Shown: one piece after another, positions 42,799 to 56,944 of the stretch | How the letters are laid out: each line of letters begins with the position of its first letter | Position numbering within the stretch: position 1 is the first letter of the stretch | Assembly (NCBI RefSeq): GCF_018476525.1 | Contig: NZ_JAHCST010000059.1 | Coordinates: forward strand, 1-56,985 | From: Acrocarpospora catenulata | GTDB taxonomy: Bacteria > Actinomycetota > Actinomycetes > Streptosporangiales > Streptosporangiaceae | Direction of reading: 5' to 3' | Length of the DNA stretch: 56,985 nt | The notes under the pieces: generated by a model | Seen by the model: the letters and a program-made list of their open reading frames with translations, nothing else | What the model was told of the DNA's origin: nothing | Database searches by the model: none | Program-made: the position numbers and the translations under genes

Positions 42799-43743
42799 CT
42801 AGAACATTGAGATGTGGACGTGGTCGTAGTGGTTCTGGGTGATGCTGCCCCGGTTGGACATGAAGCGCCAGCCTGAGCCGTGGTTGATGCGTTGTCTCCA
42901 GATGACGTATTTGACGCCGAGTTTGGTGCGGTTCTTCAGGGCCCAGTCGGCGAGGGCGTTGCCGAGGGCCACGTTGGCGGCGGAGGGCATGGTGCCGCCG
43001 GAGCTCATCATGAAGTCGCAGGCGCGGCCGAGCGGGTGCTCGCCCATGCTGTCGACCCGGAAGCAGCCGACCGTGTAGTGCAGGTTGAAGGCCTTCTTGA
43101 CCTCCTCGCGCATCAGCCGGGTGCGCGGGGTGATGTTGTCGCTGCCGGTGGGGAGCTGCGGCGCCCAGCCGCCGTTCTTCAGCTTGCCGGGGCCGATCGG
43201 GATGAGCTTGTCCAGCTTGTCCTTGATCTCGTCGATCAGCGCCTCGGCGTCCTTGCGCTGCTTGTCGATGTCTTCGGACTTGCGCTTGATGTCGGCGGTG
43301 AGCTTCTCGGCGGTCGCGGCGGCCCGACGCCGCTCGGTCTCCCGCTTGGCGTACTCGGCCATTTTGGCCGCACGCTCGGCCTGCAACTGCGCGACCAGTG
43401 GGTCGAGCTGCATGCCGGGCAGCAGCAGGGGGCTGTCCACGGTCGACTGGTAGTTCAGCCCGGCCAGCTCGGCGACCTGGCGCTGGGCCTCCACCGCGGC
43501 GACCTCGGCCTTGTCCAGTCGTTCCTGGGCGCCTTTCTCCGCCGTCTGCGCCTTCGCGAAGTCCTCCCGAGCGGCGTGGTACTTGGCGATCAGCCCGTCG
43601 ACCTTCTTCTCCAGGCTGCTGAGCTGCTTGCGCAGTTCGCCCTCGGTGGGCTTGGGGGCCGCGGTGGCAGCGGGTTCCAGGATCAGGACGGCGGCCAGTA
43701 TGCCGACCAGAACCAGGGCATGACGGTAGAACGTGGGGGGCAG
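42799..43743 (-). CDS. Secreted coiled-coil cell-wall protein with M15-like C-terminal domain; probable CTG start
   Basis: About 314 aa if started at CTG 43743. The N terminus would be a signal peptide (FYRHALVLVGILAAVLILEP then AATAA-APKP). A long coiled coil follows (~35-165: GELRKQLSSLEKKVDGLIAK, then TAEKLTADIKRKSEDIDKQR). The C-terminal ~115 residues resemble the ARB_07466-type domain and carry zinc-peptidase-like residues: EHPLGRACDFM (H-x6-D) and YDHVHI (HxH), as in M15 D,D-peptidases. No ATG, GTG or TTG exists in frame between the upstream stop (~43774) and GTG 43494; that GTG would discard the signal and half the coiled coil. GGAGAGGAG stands seven bases before CTG 43743. A c-di-AMP riboswitch precedes it. 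Confidence 0.75.
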   Translation of the reverse strand: MPPTFYRHALVLVGILAAVLILEPAATAAPKPTEGELRKQLSSLEKKVDGLIAKYHAAREDFAKAQTAEKGAQERLDKAEVAAVEAQRQVAELAGLNYQSTVDSPLLLPGMQLDPLVAQLQAERAAKMAEYAKRETERRRAAATAEKLTADIKRKSEDIDKQRKDAEALIDEIKDKLDKLIPIGPGKLKNGGWAPQLPTGSDNITPRTRLMREEVKKAFNLHYTVGCFRVDSMGEHPLGRACDFMMSSGGTMPSAANVALGNALADWALKNRTKLGVKYVIWRQRINHGSGWRFMSNRGSITQNHYDHVHISMF

Positions 43744-43750
43744 CTGCCCG

Positions 43751-43759
43751 CTCCTCTCC
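43751..43759 (-). promoter_or_regulatory. Strong ribosome binding site GGAGAGGAG for the CTG start
   Basis: On the minus strand GGAGAGGAG is followed by CGGGCAG and then CTG, an ideal 7-nt spacing. The start codon sits inside a perfect 12-bp palindrome GGGCAGCTGCCC (43738-43749), which could form part of the riboswitch output. Confidence 0.65.
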
Positions 43760-43762
43760 GCG

Positions 43763-43900
43763 AGCCGACCGGGTTAGCTGACGGGTTCGGGCGGGGAGGT
43801 GCCCTGGCGCTCTCGCGCGTTCACCCCAGGTACTTGGGTCCCCGGTTCCCGGGCGATGCACCCGGGATTAGGCGTACCGGATGAGACGCCTGATCTCTGG
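43763..43900 (-). ncRNA. ydaO/yuaA-type c-di-AMP riboswitch
   Basis: Read on the minus strand, the leader contains GAACCGGGGACCCAAGTACC, then TGGGGTGAAC, then a GC-rich hairpin with GCGCCAGGGCAC, then CCCGAACCCGTCAGCTAACC followed by CGGTCGGC. This order is the hallmark of ydaO c-di-AMP riboswitches (GGGGACCCA, TTGGGGTGAA, CCGAAxCCGTCAGCTAACC), which in actinomycetes precede cell-wall hydrolase genes such as rpf. c-di-AMP binding usually turns expression off. The 5' boundary is approximate; a TACTAT -10-like box at 43931-43936 would start the transcript just before it. The target is the secreted coiled-coil protein. Confidence 0.88.
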
Positions 43901-43983
43901 AGAGACCGTGTGAATCAGCCGGTGCGATGGATAGTAGTGGCAAAGGGGTTGCCCTGCCACCCAAAGTCGCGACCAAGTAGAGA

Positions 43984-45060
43984 TCAATCCGTGATCTGTC
44001 TCCCCGGCTTTCCCCATCCGCGGAGCAGTTCGGCCGCCTCTTCCGGTCGTACGTCGTTGACGAAGGCCCCCATCCCGGACTCCGACCCCGCCAGGTACTT
44101 CAGCTTCCCCGGCGCCCGCCGGATGCTGAACAGCTGCAGGTGCAGGTATCCGAGCTCGCGCCGGGCCCGTACCGGCGCCTGGTGCCAGGCCGCCACGTAC
44201 GGCATGACCACCCCGAAGACCCCGTCCAGCCGCCAGAGCACATCGGTGTAGACGGCCCCGAACGCGGCGCGCTCCTCGGTGTTCAGCGCGGCCAGGTCGG
44301 GCACCTGGCGGTGCGGGTAGAGGTGCACCTCGAACGGGTAGCGGGCGGCGGCCGGCACGAAGGCCGTCCAGTGCTCGTTGGCGGCGACCACGCGGGGGCC
44401 CGCCCGTTCGGCCGCCAGGACGTCCGCGAACAGGTTGCCCCCGTACCGCTCGGCGTTGTCCAGGATCTGCCGGGTCCGGGGGGTCACGTACGGATAGGCG
44501 TAGATCTGCCCGTGCGGATGGGGCAGCGTGATGCCGATCTCGGCCCCCCGGTTCTCGAAGCAGAACACCTGCTCCACCCCCGGCAGCGCCGACAGCTCCG
44601 CCGTACGGTCCGCCCAGGCCTCCATCACCAGCTCGACCTGCTCGGGGGAGAGGGCGGCGAAGGAGGACTGGTGGTCGGCGGTGAAGCAGACCACCTCACA
44701 CCGGCCGATGCCGGGCCGTACCTCGCTGAGGCCGCCCACCTGCTCCCGCGTGTCCGGGCCCACGTAGCTGAAGGAGGGGAAGCGGTTCTCGAAGACCACC
44801 ACGTCGTACCAGGAGGGGATCTCCGAGCCGGGATGGGCGGGGCAGAGCGGGCACTCCTCGGCGGACGGCAGGTGGGTGCGGGTCTGCCGGTGACCGGCGA
44901 TGGCCACCCACTCGTCCATCAGCGGGTCGTAGCGCAGTTCGGAGGAGGGGGGCCGCGGGGGCAGGTCGCGCTCGTCGCGGGCGCTCCGGTCGGCCGCGTC
45001 GGAGCGGTCGAAGTAGAACAGCTCCCGGCCGTCGGCCAGGTGGATCATGGTCTTCTTCAC
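43984..45060 (-). CDS. galT: Galactose-1-phosphate uridylyltransferase
   Basis: A 358-aa GalT of the Leloir pathway, exchanging UMP between UDP-glucose and galactose-1-phosphate. It has the zinc-site CPLCPAHPG, VVFENRFPSF, and the active-site GITLPHPHGQIYAYPY with the HPHGQ nucleophilic His. GTG 45060 overlaps the upstream regulator stop (GTGA) and has GAGAGGAT upstream; ATG 45048 is an alternative. No galK or galE is in the window, so the pathway is completed elsewhere or beyond this operon. The frame stays open through the regulator gene, which is a shadow. Confidence 0.94.
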   Translation of the reverse strand: MKKTMIHLADGRELFYFDRSDAADRSARDERDLPPRPPSSELRYDPLMDEWVAIAGHRQTRTHLPSAEECPLCPAHPGSEIPSWYDVVVFENRFPSFSYVGPDTREQVGGLSEVRPGIGRCEVVCFTADHQSSFAALSPEQVELVMEAWADRTAELSALPGVEQVFCFENRGAEIGITLPHPHGQIYAYPYVTPRTRQILDNAERYGGNLFADVLAAERAGPRVVAANEHWTAFVPAAARYPFEVHLYPHRQVPDLAALNTEERAAFGAVYTDVLWRLDGVFGVVMPYVAAWHQAPVRARRELGYLHLQLFSIRRAPGKLKYLAGSESGMGAFVNDVRPEEAAELLRGWGKPGRQITD

Positions 45061-45845
45061 CGGGGGAGATCCTCTCCGCCCGCTACCACGACCTCGCCCA
45101 CGTACTCGGCCAGCTCCGCCCTGGCCGCCACCGGCAGGCCCGCGTCGGTGACCACCACGTGCGCCTGTTCCAGCCGGGCGATGGTGCTGATGCCGATGGT
45201 GCCCCACTTGGTGTGGTCGGCCACCACCACCAGCCGCTGCGCGGCGGCCACCAGCGCCCGGTCGGTCTCGGCCTCCAGCAGGTTGGGCGTGGTGAAACCG
45301 GCCCTGGGGCTCATGCCGTGCACGCCCAGCAGCAGCACGTCCACGTTGAGGGAGTGGACGGCGGCCACCGCGACCGGGCCGACCAGCGCGTCGGACGGTG
45401 TCCGTACCCCGCCGACCAGGATGACCGTCTGGTCGGGGCGGCCGGAGCGGTGGAAGACCTCGGCCACCGGCAGCGAGTTGGTGATCACCGTCAGCTCGGG
45501 CACGTCGGCCAGGTGGTGGGCGAGGGTCCAGGTGGTGGTCCCCGCCGAGAGGGCGACCGAGCCGCCGGGGCGGACCAGGGCGGCCGCGTGCCGGGCGATG
45601 GCCTCCTTCTCGGCCTGCTGGCGCACGGACTTGGCGGCGAACCCCGGTTCGTCGGCCGAGCCGGGCCCGGGCACGGTGGCGCCGCCGTGCACCTTCTCCA
45701 GCAGCCCCCGGTCGGCCAGCGCCTCCAGGTCCCTGCGGATCGTCATGTCCGACACGCCGAGGTCCCTGACCAGGTCGGCCACCCGCACCCCACCGGTCCT
45801 GCGGACCCGTTCCAGGATCGCCTGCTGCCGTTGCTGGGCCAGCAT
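45057..45845 (-). CDS. DeoR-family transcriptional regulator of the galT operon
   Basis: A 262-aa DeoR/GlpR repressor. The N-terminal winged HTH (QQAILERVRRTGGVRVADLV, then LGVSDMTIRRDLEALADRGL with EKVHGGA) is classical. The C-terminal sugar-phosphate-binding domain includes VALSAGTTTWTLAHHL and VADHTKWG. It is translationally coupled to galT, so it probably senses a galactose-related sugar phosphate and controls this operon. ATG 45845 has AAGGAG five bases upstream; GTG 45848 is too close to it. Operator-like repeats lie immediately upstream. Confidence 0.92.
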   Translation of the reverse strand: MLAQQRQQAILERVRRTGGVRVADLVRDLGVSDMTIRRDLEALADRGLLEKVHGGATVPGPGSADEPGFAAKSVRQQAEKEAIARHAAALVRPGGSVALSAGTTTWTLAHHLADVPELTVITNSLPVAEVFHRSGRPDQTVILVGGVRTPSDALVGPVAVAAVHSLNVDVLLLGVHGMSPRAGFTTPNLLEAETDRALVAAAQRLVVVADHTKWGTIGISTIARLEQAHVVVTDAGLPVAARAELAEYVGEVVVAGGEDLPR

Positions 45846-45855
45846 CACCGCTCCT

Positions 45856-45898
45856 TATCAACAGATTTCAACAAATTATTGCATAGCGAATGTTGAAA
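45856..45898 (-). promoter_or_regulatory. Operator-like TTTCAACA repeats before the DeoR-galT operon
   Basis: TTTCAACA (45866-45873) and TGTTGAAA (45891-45898) form a perfect inverted repeat, and a third variant TATCAACA lies at 45856-45863, ten bases from the second in direct orientation. The AT-rich spacer (AATAATTTG on the minus strand) suits a promoter. This fits autoregulation by the DeoR-type protein. Confidence 0.65.
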
Positions 45899-56712: not shown

Positions 56713-56783
56713 AGCGGACGACGGGAATCGAACCCGCGTAGCCAGTTTGGAAGACTGGGGCTCTACCATTGAGCTACGTCCGC
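56713..56783 (-). tRNA. tRNA-Gly (TCC)
   Basis: 71 nt. Acceptor stem GCGGACG/CGTCCGC; D-arm AGCTCAATGGTAGAGC; anticodon stem CCAGT/ACTGG around CTTCCAA with anticodon TCC; T-arm GCGGGTTCGATTCCCGT. The discriminator is T, usual for glycine; the CCA end is not encoded. It reads GGA (and wobble) glycine codons. Confidence 0.95.
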
Positions 56784-56870: not shown

Positions 56871-56944
56871 CGGGGTGTGGCGCAGTTTGGTAGCGCACCT
56901 GCTTTGGGAGCAGGGGGCCGCAGGTTCAAATCCTGTCACCCCGA
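56871..56944 (+). tRNA. tRNA-Pro (TGG)
   Basis: 74 nt. Acceptor CGGGGTG/CACCCCG with discriminator A; D-arm GCGCAGTTTGGTAGCGC; anticodon stem CCTGC/GCAGG around TTTGGGA with anticodon TGG; T-arm CGCAGGTTCAAATCCTGTC. CCA is not encoded. It is divergent from tRNA-Gly. Confidence 0.96.

Follow-up and report, generated by a model that had tools for sequence, protein, structure and literature searches.

The window, i.e., the whole analyzed stretch of 56,985 nt, is contig C137 of the Acrocarpospora genome G000, and the genus group of this genome has four other members. On its minus strand lies a c-di-AMP (ydaO/yuaA) riboswitch aptamer (43749..43884), followed by a gene that ends with the stop codon TAG (42799..42801) and whose predicted product combines a signal peptide, a coiled coil, and a peptidase domain. 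The upstream neighbors (43984-45861, minus strand) resemble galT (uridylyltransferase) and a DeoR-type regulator, as judged by eye from their translations, and tRNA genes are localized at the window end (56713-56783, minus; 56871-56944, plus). The ydaO leader described in the initial annotation was recovered by an Infernal-type check with cmscan: the RF00379 match at 43884-43749 reaches 82.6 bits (E 9.7e-18), the gathering score being 38, and its alignment covers model positions 1-134, i.e., the full length. The minimum free energy fold of the leader contained no visible aptamer and was left unused. As stated in PMC9960051, most actinobacterial ydaO switches stand before cell-wall genes, a rule that the initial annotation gave for actinomycete cell-wall hydrolases.

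The reading frame behind the aptamer lacks an ordinary start codon at its beginning. No ATG, GTG, or TTG occurs in this frame between an upstream TAA, located inside the aptamer, and GTG 43494, and the signal peptide is therefore readable only from the CTG at 43743-43741 (feature 43741..43743, minus strand), from which the frame extends over 314 codons to the TAG. This CTG follows at a distance of 7 nt the stretch GGAGAGGAG (43751..43759, minus strand), composed of GGAG, a possible pseudoknot strand, and the Shine-Dalgarno core AGGAG (43755-43751); by inspection, no other near-cognate codon of the frame is suitably spaced from the Shine-Dalgarno core to act as the start. Codons 1-29 (43657..43743, minus strand) encode the putative signal peptide, ending with RHALVLVGILAAVLILEPAATAA, the predicted boundary of which was deduced from the sequence and from the hydrophobic stretch before APKP in an alignment of 38 homologs. 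Both the frame devoid of canonical starts and the spacing between the Shine-Dalgarno stretch and the CTG thus agree with the initial annotation, and the gene appears, judging from its sequence, to begin at the CTG. A sequencing error at 43741-43743 is unlikely, because the same codon is present in the four other genomes of the genus.

In the full-length AlphaFold2 model, the signal peptide is followed by two long helices that form a coiled coil (residues 34-102 and 115-179; 43207..43644, minus strand) and then by the C-terminal domain. Comparison of the structures shows that a long coiled coil is also present in peptidoglycan hydrolases of the RipA / Cg1735 type (6ewy, 9hmx, 8auc), which are secreted enzymes. 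Since the coiled coils filled the structure comparison of the whole protein, the peptidase domain (residues 203-314; 42802..43137, minus strand) was modeled alone (pLDDT 88.9). Foldseek assigned this domain to the VldE structure 9fln (E 3.1e-9, TM 0.69 over the query, rmsd 2.2), the next non-VldE match having an E of 0.7, and phmmer assigned the protein to 9flh (E 1e-15), a code for which no paper was found in the literature searched. VldE (Spr1875) is an L,D-endopeptidase of Streptococcus pneumoniae with the zinc ligands H301, D308, and H375 and the catalytic His and Arg residues R294, H370, and H373 (PMC11667670; 9flh-9fln). Their counterparts in the window protein, H236, D243, H310, R229, H305, and H308, are invariant in 38 sequences, and so are the H-x6-D (H236, D243) and HxH (H308, H310) patterns that had been noticed in the C-terminal domain in the initial annotation; by homology, H236, D243, and H310 are predicted to bind zinc. 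The two proteins share the C-terminal fold, the H, D, H zinc ligands, the arginine, and the extra histidine and aspartate of the Lzz loop, but differ in three respects (PMC11667670): the window protein has a coiled coil where VldE has an N-terminal wall-binding module, Gln303 aligns with the VldE residue Glu368 of the zinc-reservoir state, and a c-di-AMP riboswitch is found in place of VicRK control. The designation of the protein as M15-like has to be restricted to fold and active site, which resemble those of M15 enzymes through VldE, since no M15 profile was present among 14 Pfam matches at E<=10 in a search whose filters drop most weak matches; likewise, no NCBIfam model scored above its cut-off for the window protein. 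The product is probably a secreted coiled-coil L,D-endopeptidase related to VldE, and by analogy with that enzyme it is predicted to cleave stem peptides at L-Ala/D-Glu.

For comparative analysis of the start, 341 genomes of the family were searched, and a homolog at E<=1e-60 was found in 141 of them. The analysis of start regions covered 139 loci in 138 of these genomes (G333 gave two loci), whereas G126, G240, and locus L158 of G241, which had no tblastn frame, were left out and loci L160-L175 lie outside the analyzed set. In ten genus codes, including Acrocarpospora, Herbidospora, Planotetraspora, Microbispora, Microtetraspora, Sphaerisporangium, and Sphaerimonospora, each of the 51 loci carries CTG at the position homologous to that of the window, where it follows GGAGAGGAG or a sequence much like it at a near-fixed distance; this grouping was defined after an inspection of start regions that covered genus code g4 in part, the script then querying the ten genera for CTG only, and the related loci count as one change rather than 51 events. 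Every position of GGAGAGGAG is kept in at least 49 of the 51 loci at the common spacing. The remaining loci have GTG (81), TTG (3), ATG (2), or CTG (2, both in genus code g88). The latter two VldE-like orthologs, L155 and L159, have no RF00379 match and may start at the CTG or at a downstream GTG. One CTG-type locus, L115 of G253, contains an in-frame ATG 18 nt upstream of the CTG, where an ATG start is possible. Thus, the CTG start put forward in the initial annotation gains comparative support and is best regarded as probable on that ground.

In many GTG-type loci, the start lies about three codons upstream of the homologous position, with VAA, and an alignment of nine loci revealed an 8-nt indel, TGCGTGGC, which holds the GTG of L108 and L018 and is missing from the CTG type. 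An unrooted tree, from which the start columns were excluded, was computed for 38 of these loci, 22 of them CTG-type (representing eight of the ten genus codes) and 16 GTG-type. It contains one branch that parts CTG from GTG rows (support 94/91, not starred). Sphaerisporangium is represented by a single row, L014, which adjoins the GTG rows; because of this placement and the lack of a root, both loss and gain of the GTG are possible. The two start types are separated on this tree by one change, in either direction.

These data bear on the shorter gene model, in which translation begins at GTG 43494 and yields a 231-residue protein with no signal peptide, the upstream stretch being untranslated. 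It is the only form that an ORF finder with ATG, GTG, and TTG starts reports in the window frame. However, the 83 codons upstream of GTG 43494 align as protein in 38 homologs, where they form the signal peptide and the first coiled-coil helix, and the GTG-type relatives likewise start upstream, directly behind the same Shine-Dalgarno stretch. Homologs that start at the position of GTG 43494 and lack the signal peptide were looked for, with a negative outcome, and we consider that the alignment and the upstream starts of the relatives rule this start out for practical purposes. A frameshift after initiation at one of the out-of-frame leader triplets, ATG or GTG (within AGATGGAG or GAGTGGG), or else a start at some other near-cognate codon, is somewhat less remote, given that such triplets occur near the Shine-Dalgarno stretch in many relatives, but it too is highly improbable. 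The leader triplets vary among relatives, the window having GCGGAGAGGAGCGGG, most Herbidospora CAAGGAG, and three Microbispora CGTGGAG, which speaks against a frameshift, and by inspection no other near-cognate codon occurs 5-12 nt from the Shine-Dalgarno stretch in the window frame.

The CTG start itself was compared with the codon usage around it. CTG constitutes 50.5% of leucine codons elsewhere in the same gene parts, and at five other conserved leucine columns it is found in 15, 23, 39, 44, and 32 of the 51 loci, mostly replaced by CTC otherwise. Variation after the CTG is concentrated in third codon positions (67 variable sites vs. 42 and 37 at the other two) in the six genus codes counted, Sphaerisporangium (g31) having dropped out of this count, whereas Acrocarpospora alone shows no such preference (8, 9, 8). 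Six of the 51 loci, the window included, have no canonical codon from the CTG to the mature N-terminus. The other 45 loci do have one, first encountered at codon 4 (3 loci), codons 9-12 (30 loci), or codons 16-21 (12 loci), and in 15 of the 51 loci a canonical codon occurs in the open frame upstream; both observations count against a CTG start. The upstream open frame is shorter than 15 codons in 5 of the 51 loci and hence is not kept. The G of the CTG could also be held by the surrounding hairpin (see below) rather than by initiation.

A second gene with a similar start was found in the same genome. G000 (10.29 Mb) contains four RF00379 matches; two of them precede genes that start at ATG (D,D-carboxypeptidase-like and CHAP-like), the third belongs to the window gene, and the fourth precedes an NlpC/P60-like gene, these functions being named by eye from the translations. 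The signal peptide of the NlpC/P60-like gene begins without ATG, GTG, or TTG, only AGGAGCAATC-CTG being available, and this CTG (L003:1672-1674 = G000:C161:32619-32621, outside the window) is its apparent start. Homologs at E<=1e-40 were detected in 25 of 100 relatives (27 loci). All 21 loci with a recognizable aptamer end and the same arrangement (L176-L196, from 17 genus codes) have CTG, a paralog (L201) carries TTG in this position, and five loci had no anchor. Some of these 17 genus codes start the VldE-like gene at GTG. A sequence pattern with the first base of the codon left free matched in 84 of the 341 genomes, all 84 with CTG; these matches were counted whatever gene stands behind them, and the window's genus was missed. 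In two of these genomes (G279 and G293), a GTG is additionally present in frame, two codons before the CTG. With a looser pattern, applied to 394 genomes of the class, 16 matched, all from the same family, G000 included, and all with CTG. In 20 of the 21 loci, the CTG is immediately preceded by AUC or AUU as a conceivable alternative start; the resulting 2-nt spacing and the GTT found in L191 argue against this, though not finally, and the NlpC/P60-like gene appears to start at the CTG. Two loci of other genera, L199 and L198, have no RF00379 match and still show GGA followed by CTG before a similar N-terminus; CTG use may be independent of the riboswitch. A survey of ydaO-associated genes covered 73 loci, including 17 without an anchor, 4 without a readable frame, and 2 with a doubtful frame (L204 and L229). 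Among the 50 readable genes, 36 start with ATG, GTG, or TTG and 14 with CTG, namely 5 VldE-like and 9 NlpC/P60-like genes.

The start codon of the window gene is embedded in GGGCAGCTGCCC, a perfect 12-bp palindrome at 43749-43738, that can form a GGGC-AGCT-GCCC hairpin (43738..43749, minus strand; the 18-mer folds at -7.0 kcal/mol). The palindrome reported in the initial annotation is thus real but peculiar to the window species, which has one extra A in the hairpin loop: most relatives carry GGGC-N-CTG-CCC, an 11-nt motif in which the four outer bases of either side can pair with each other, or variants of it, so that the palindrome was discarded as a conserved element. The start 18-mers of the CTG-type loci fold at -7.0 kcal/mol on average (n=51) vs. 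-1.67 for the other loci (n=88), the background windows and the shuffles averaging -2.76 and -3.8 kcal/mol, respectively. Energies of -4 kcal/mol or better are reached by 50 of the 51 CTG-type 18-mers vs. 29% of same-gene background windows, and also by 43% of shuffled start 18-mers; since G+C-rich sequence favors such folds, these energies constitute support for the hairpin, not proof. The two genes differ in geometry. The CTG of the VldE-like genes is in and beside the loop, whereas that of the NlpC/P60-like genes can pair directly with the Shine-Dalgarno sequence (AGGA-tetraloop-UCCU or UUCU in L176-L196) across a tetraloop of the GNRA (20/21) or UUCG (1/21) type.

The initial annotation had suggested that the palindrome couples access to the start codon with the riboswitch, i.e., that the start-codon hairpin is the output device of the aptamer. 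The excess of stable folds over background windows and the pairing of the Shine-Dalgarno sequence with the start in the NlpC/P60-like genes would suit such a role, yet we regard it as doubtful. A large share of shuffled 18-mers fold as well, the UUCG variant forms no stable fold alone in ViennaRNA, and most readable ydaO genes have a canonical start. Moreover, the hairpin, the CTG, and the Shine-Dalgarno stretch are retained in three loci, L113 (G119) and L140 (G112), both Microbispora, and L133 (G348), where no RF00379 match at the gathering score was found, although L101 gave one in the same run. The aptamer before the VldE-like gene is lost or broken in these loci, hence the riboswitch is not required for the persistence of hairpin and CTG, and coupling of the start hairpin to the riboswitch is not supported.

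A simpler coupling, pairing of an aptamer loop with the ribosome-binding site, was proposed earlier for the nlpC gene of C. glutamicum (PMC9960051). Its leader belongs to the same RF00379 aptamer family and, as in the window, precedes a cell-wall peptidase gene; it is described as having no canonical terminator, with translation as the affected step and OFF control proposed to operate through a CTCC-GGAG(RBS) pseudoknot. The window system differs from it in that the enzyme belongs to a different family and the start is CTG, with a hairpin holding the start codon; term searches in PMC9960051 did not return the start codon of C. glutamicum nlpC. In the window, CTCC in the last aptamer stem-loop (43795..43798, minus strand) can pair with GGAG 43759-43756, as seen by eye, this pairing comprising 4 bp only. 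Among 128 distinct leaders, selected for conformity to a strict motif with the others dropped, 104 show a loop-tail match of at least 5 bp, against about 67 expected after swapping of tails. Binding of c-di-AMP and control of the window gene by the aptamer are predicted.

We consider it likely that the window gene encodes a secreted cell-wall endopeptidase, that c-di-AMP keeps its synthesis low, and that its translation starts at the CTG. At high c-di-AMP, the CTCC in the last loop of the folded aptamer would pair with the GGAG beside the Shine-Dalgarno core and block the ribosome. At low c-di-AMP, the Shine-Dalgarno site would be free, the small start-codon hairpin would be melted, and translation would start at CUG with formyl-methionine. 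The protein would then be exported and its signal peptide cut near residue 29, the coiled coil presumably positioning the VldE-like zinc L,D-endopeptidase on peptidoglycan. The OFF direction and the translational level of control are predicted in analogy to C. glutamicum nlpC, and a weak start might keep a dangerous autolysin at a low level.

To our knowledge, CTG is very rare as a bacterial start codon. In literature that was mainly open access, no paper dealing with CTG starts downstream of ydaO switches was found; each single part of the arrangement is already known, and the new point is the conserved CTG. Published examples of bacterial CUG initiation resemble the present genes in combining CUG with a good Shine-Dalgarno sequence, but describe CUG as a very poor start: in an unbiased selection in M. 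smegmatis, CTG accounted for 0.03% at the leadered position and was not enriched (PMC4633059), and CUG complexes were less stable in E. coli (PMC11497404), whereas here CTG is kept across genera in two natural genes. These experiments leave some room for the explanation that the CTG genes are barely expressed start-codon losses, their conservation reflecting the protein and not the use of CTG, as does the separation of CTG and GTG types by one tree change plus the indel holding the GTG. We nevertheless judge this explanation very unlikely. The protein, the Shine-Dalgarno sequence, the spacing, and the CTG are all kept in ten genus codes, the third-position bias runs up to the CTG, and the NlpC/P60-like gene has the same CTG in 17 genus codes, including some in which the VldE-like gene starts at GTG. 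Initiation at CUG is accordingly the reading that we prefer for both genes, on comparative grounds, all counts being drawn from related species.

A broader proposal, which we offer tentatively and hold less probable than its opposite, is that in cell-wall hydrolase genes of Streptosporangiaceae CTG is a conserved regulatory device, a deliberately weak start set in a small hairpin behind a c-di-AMP riboswitch, with the hairpin kept where the riboswitch is lost and with CUG initiation far better than in mycobacteria. In practical terms, an ORF search restricted to ATG, GTG, and TTG shortens the window gene, and the signal peptides of some secreted proteins may be missing from their annotation. 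The CTG and GTG orthologs, with and without the riboswitch, make up a clean reporter set, and two unrelated riboswitch-controlled hydrolase genes in which CTG is conserved over many genera would provide a natural test of bacterial CUG initiation.
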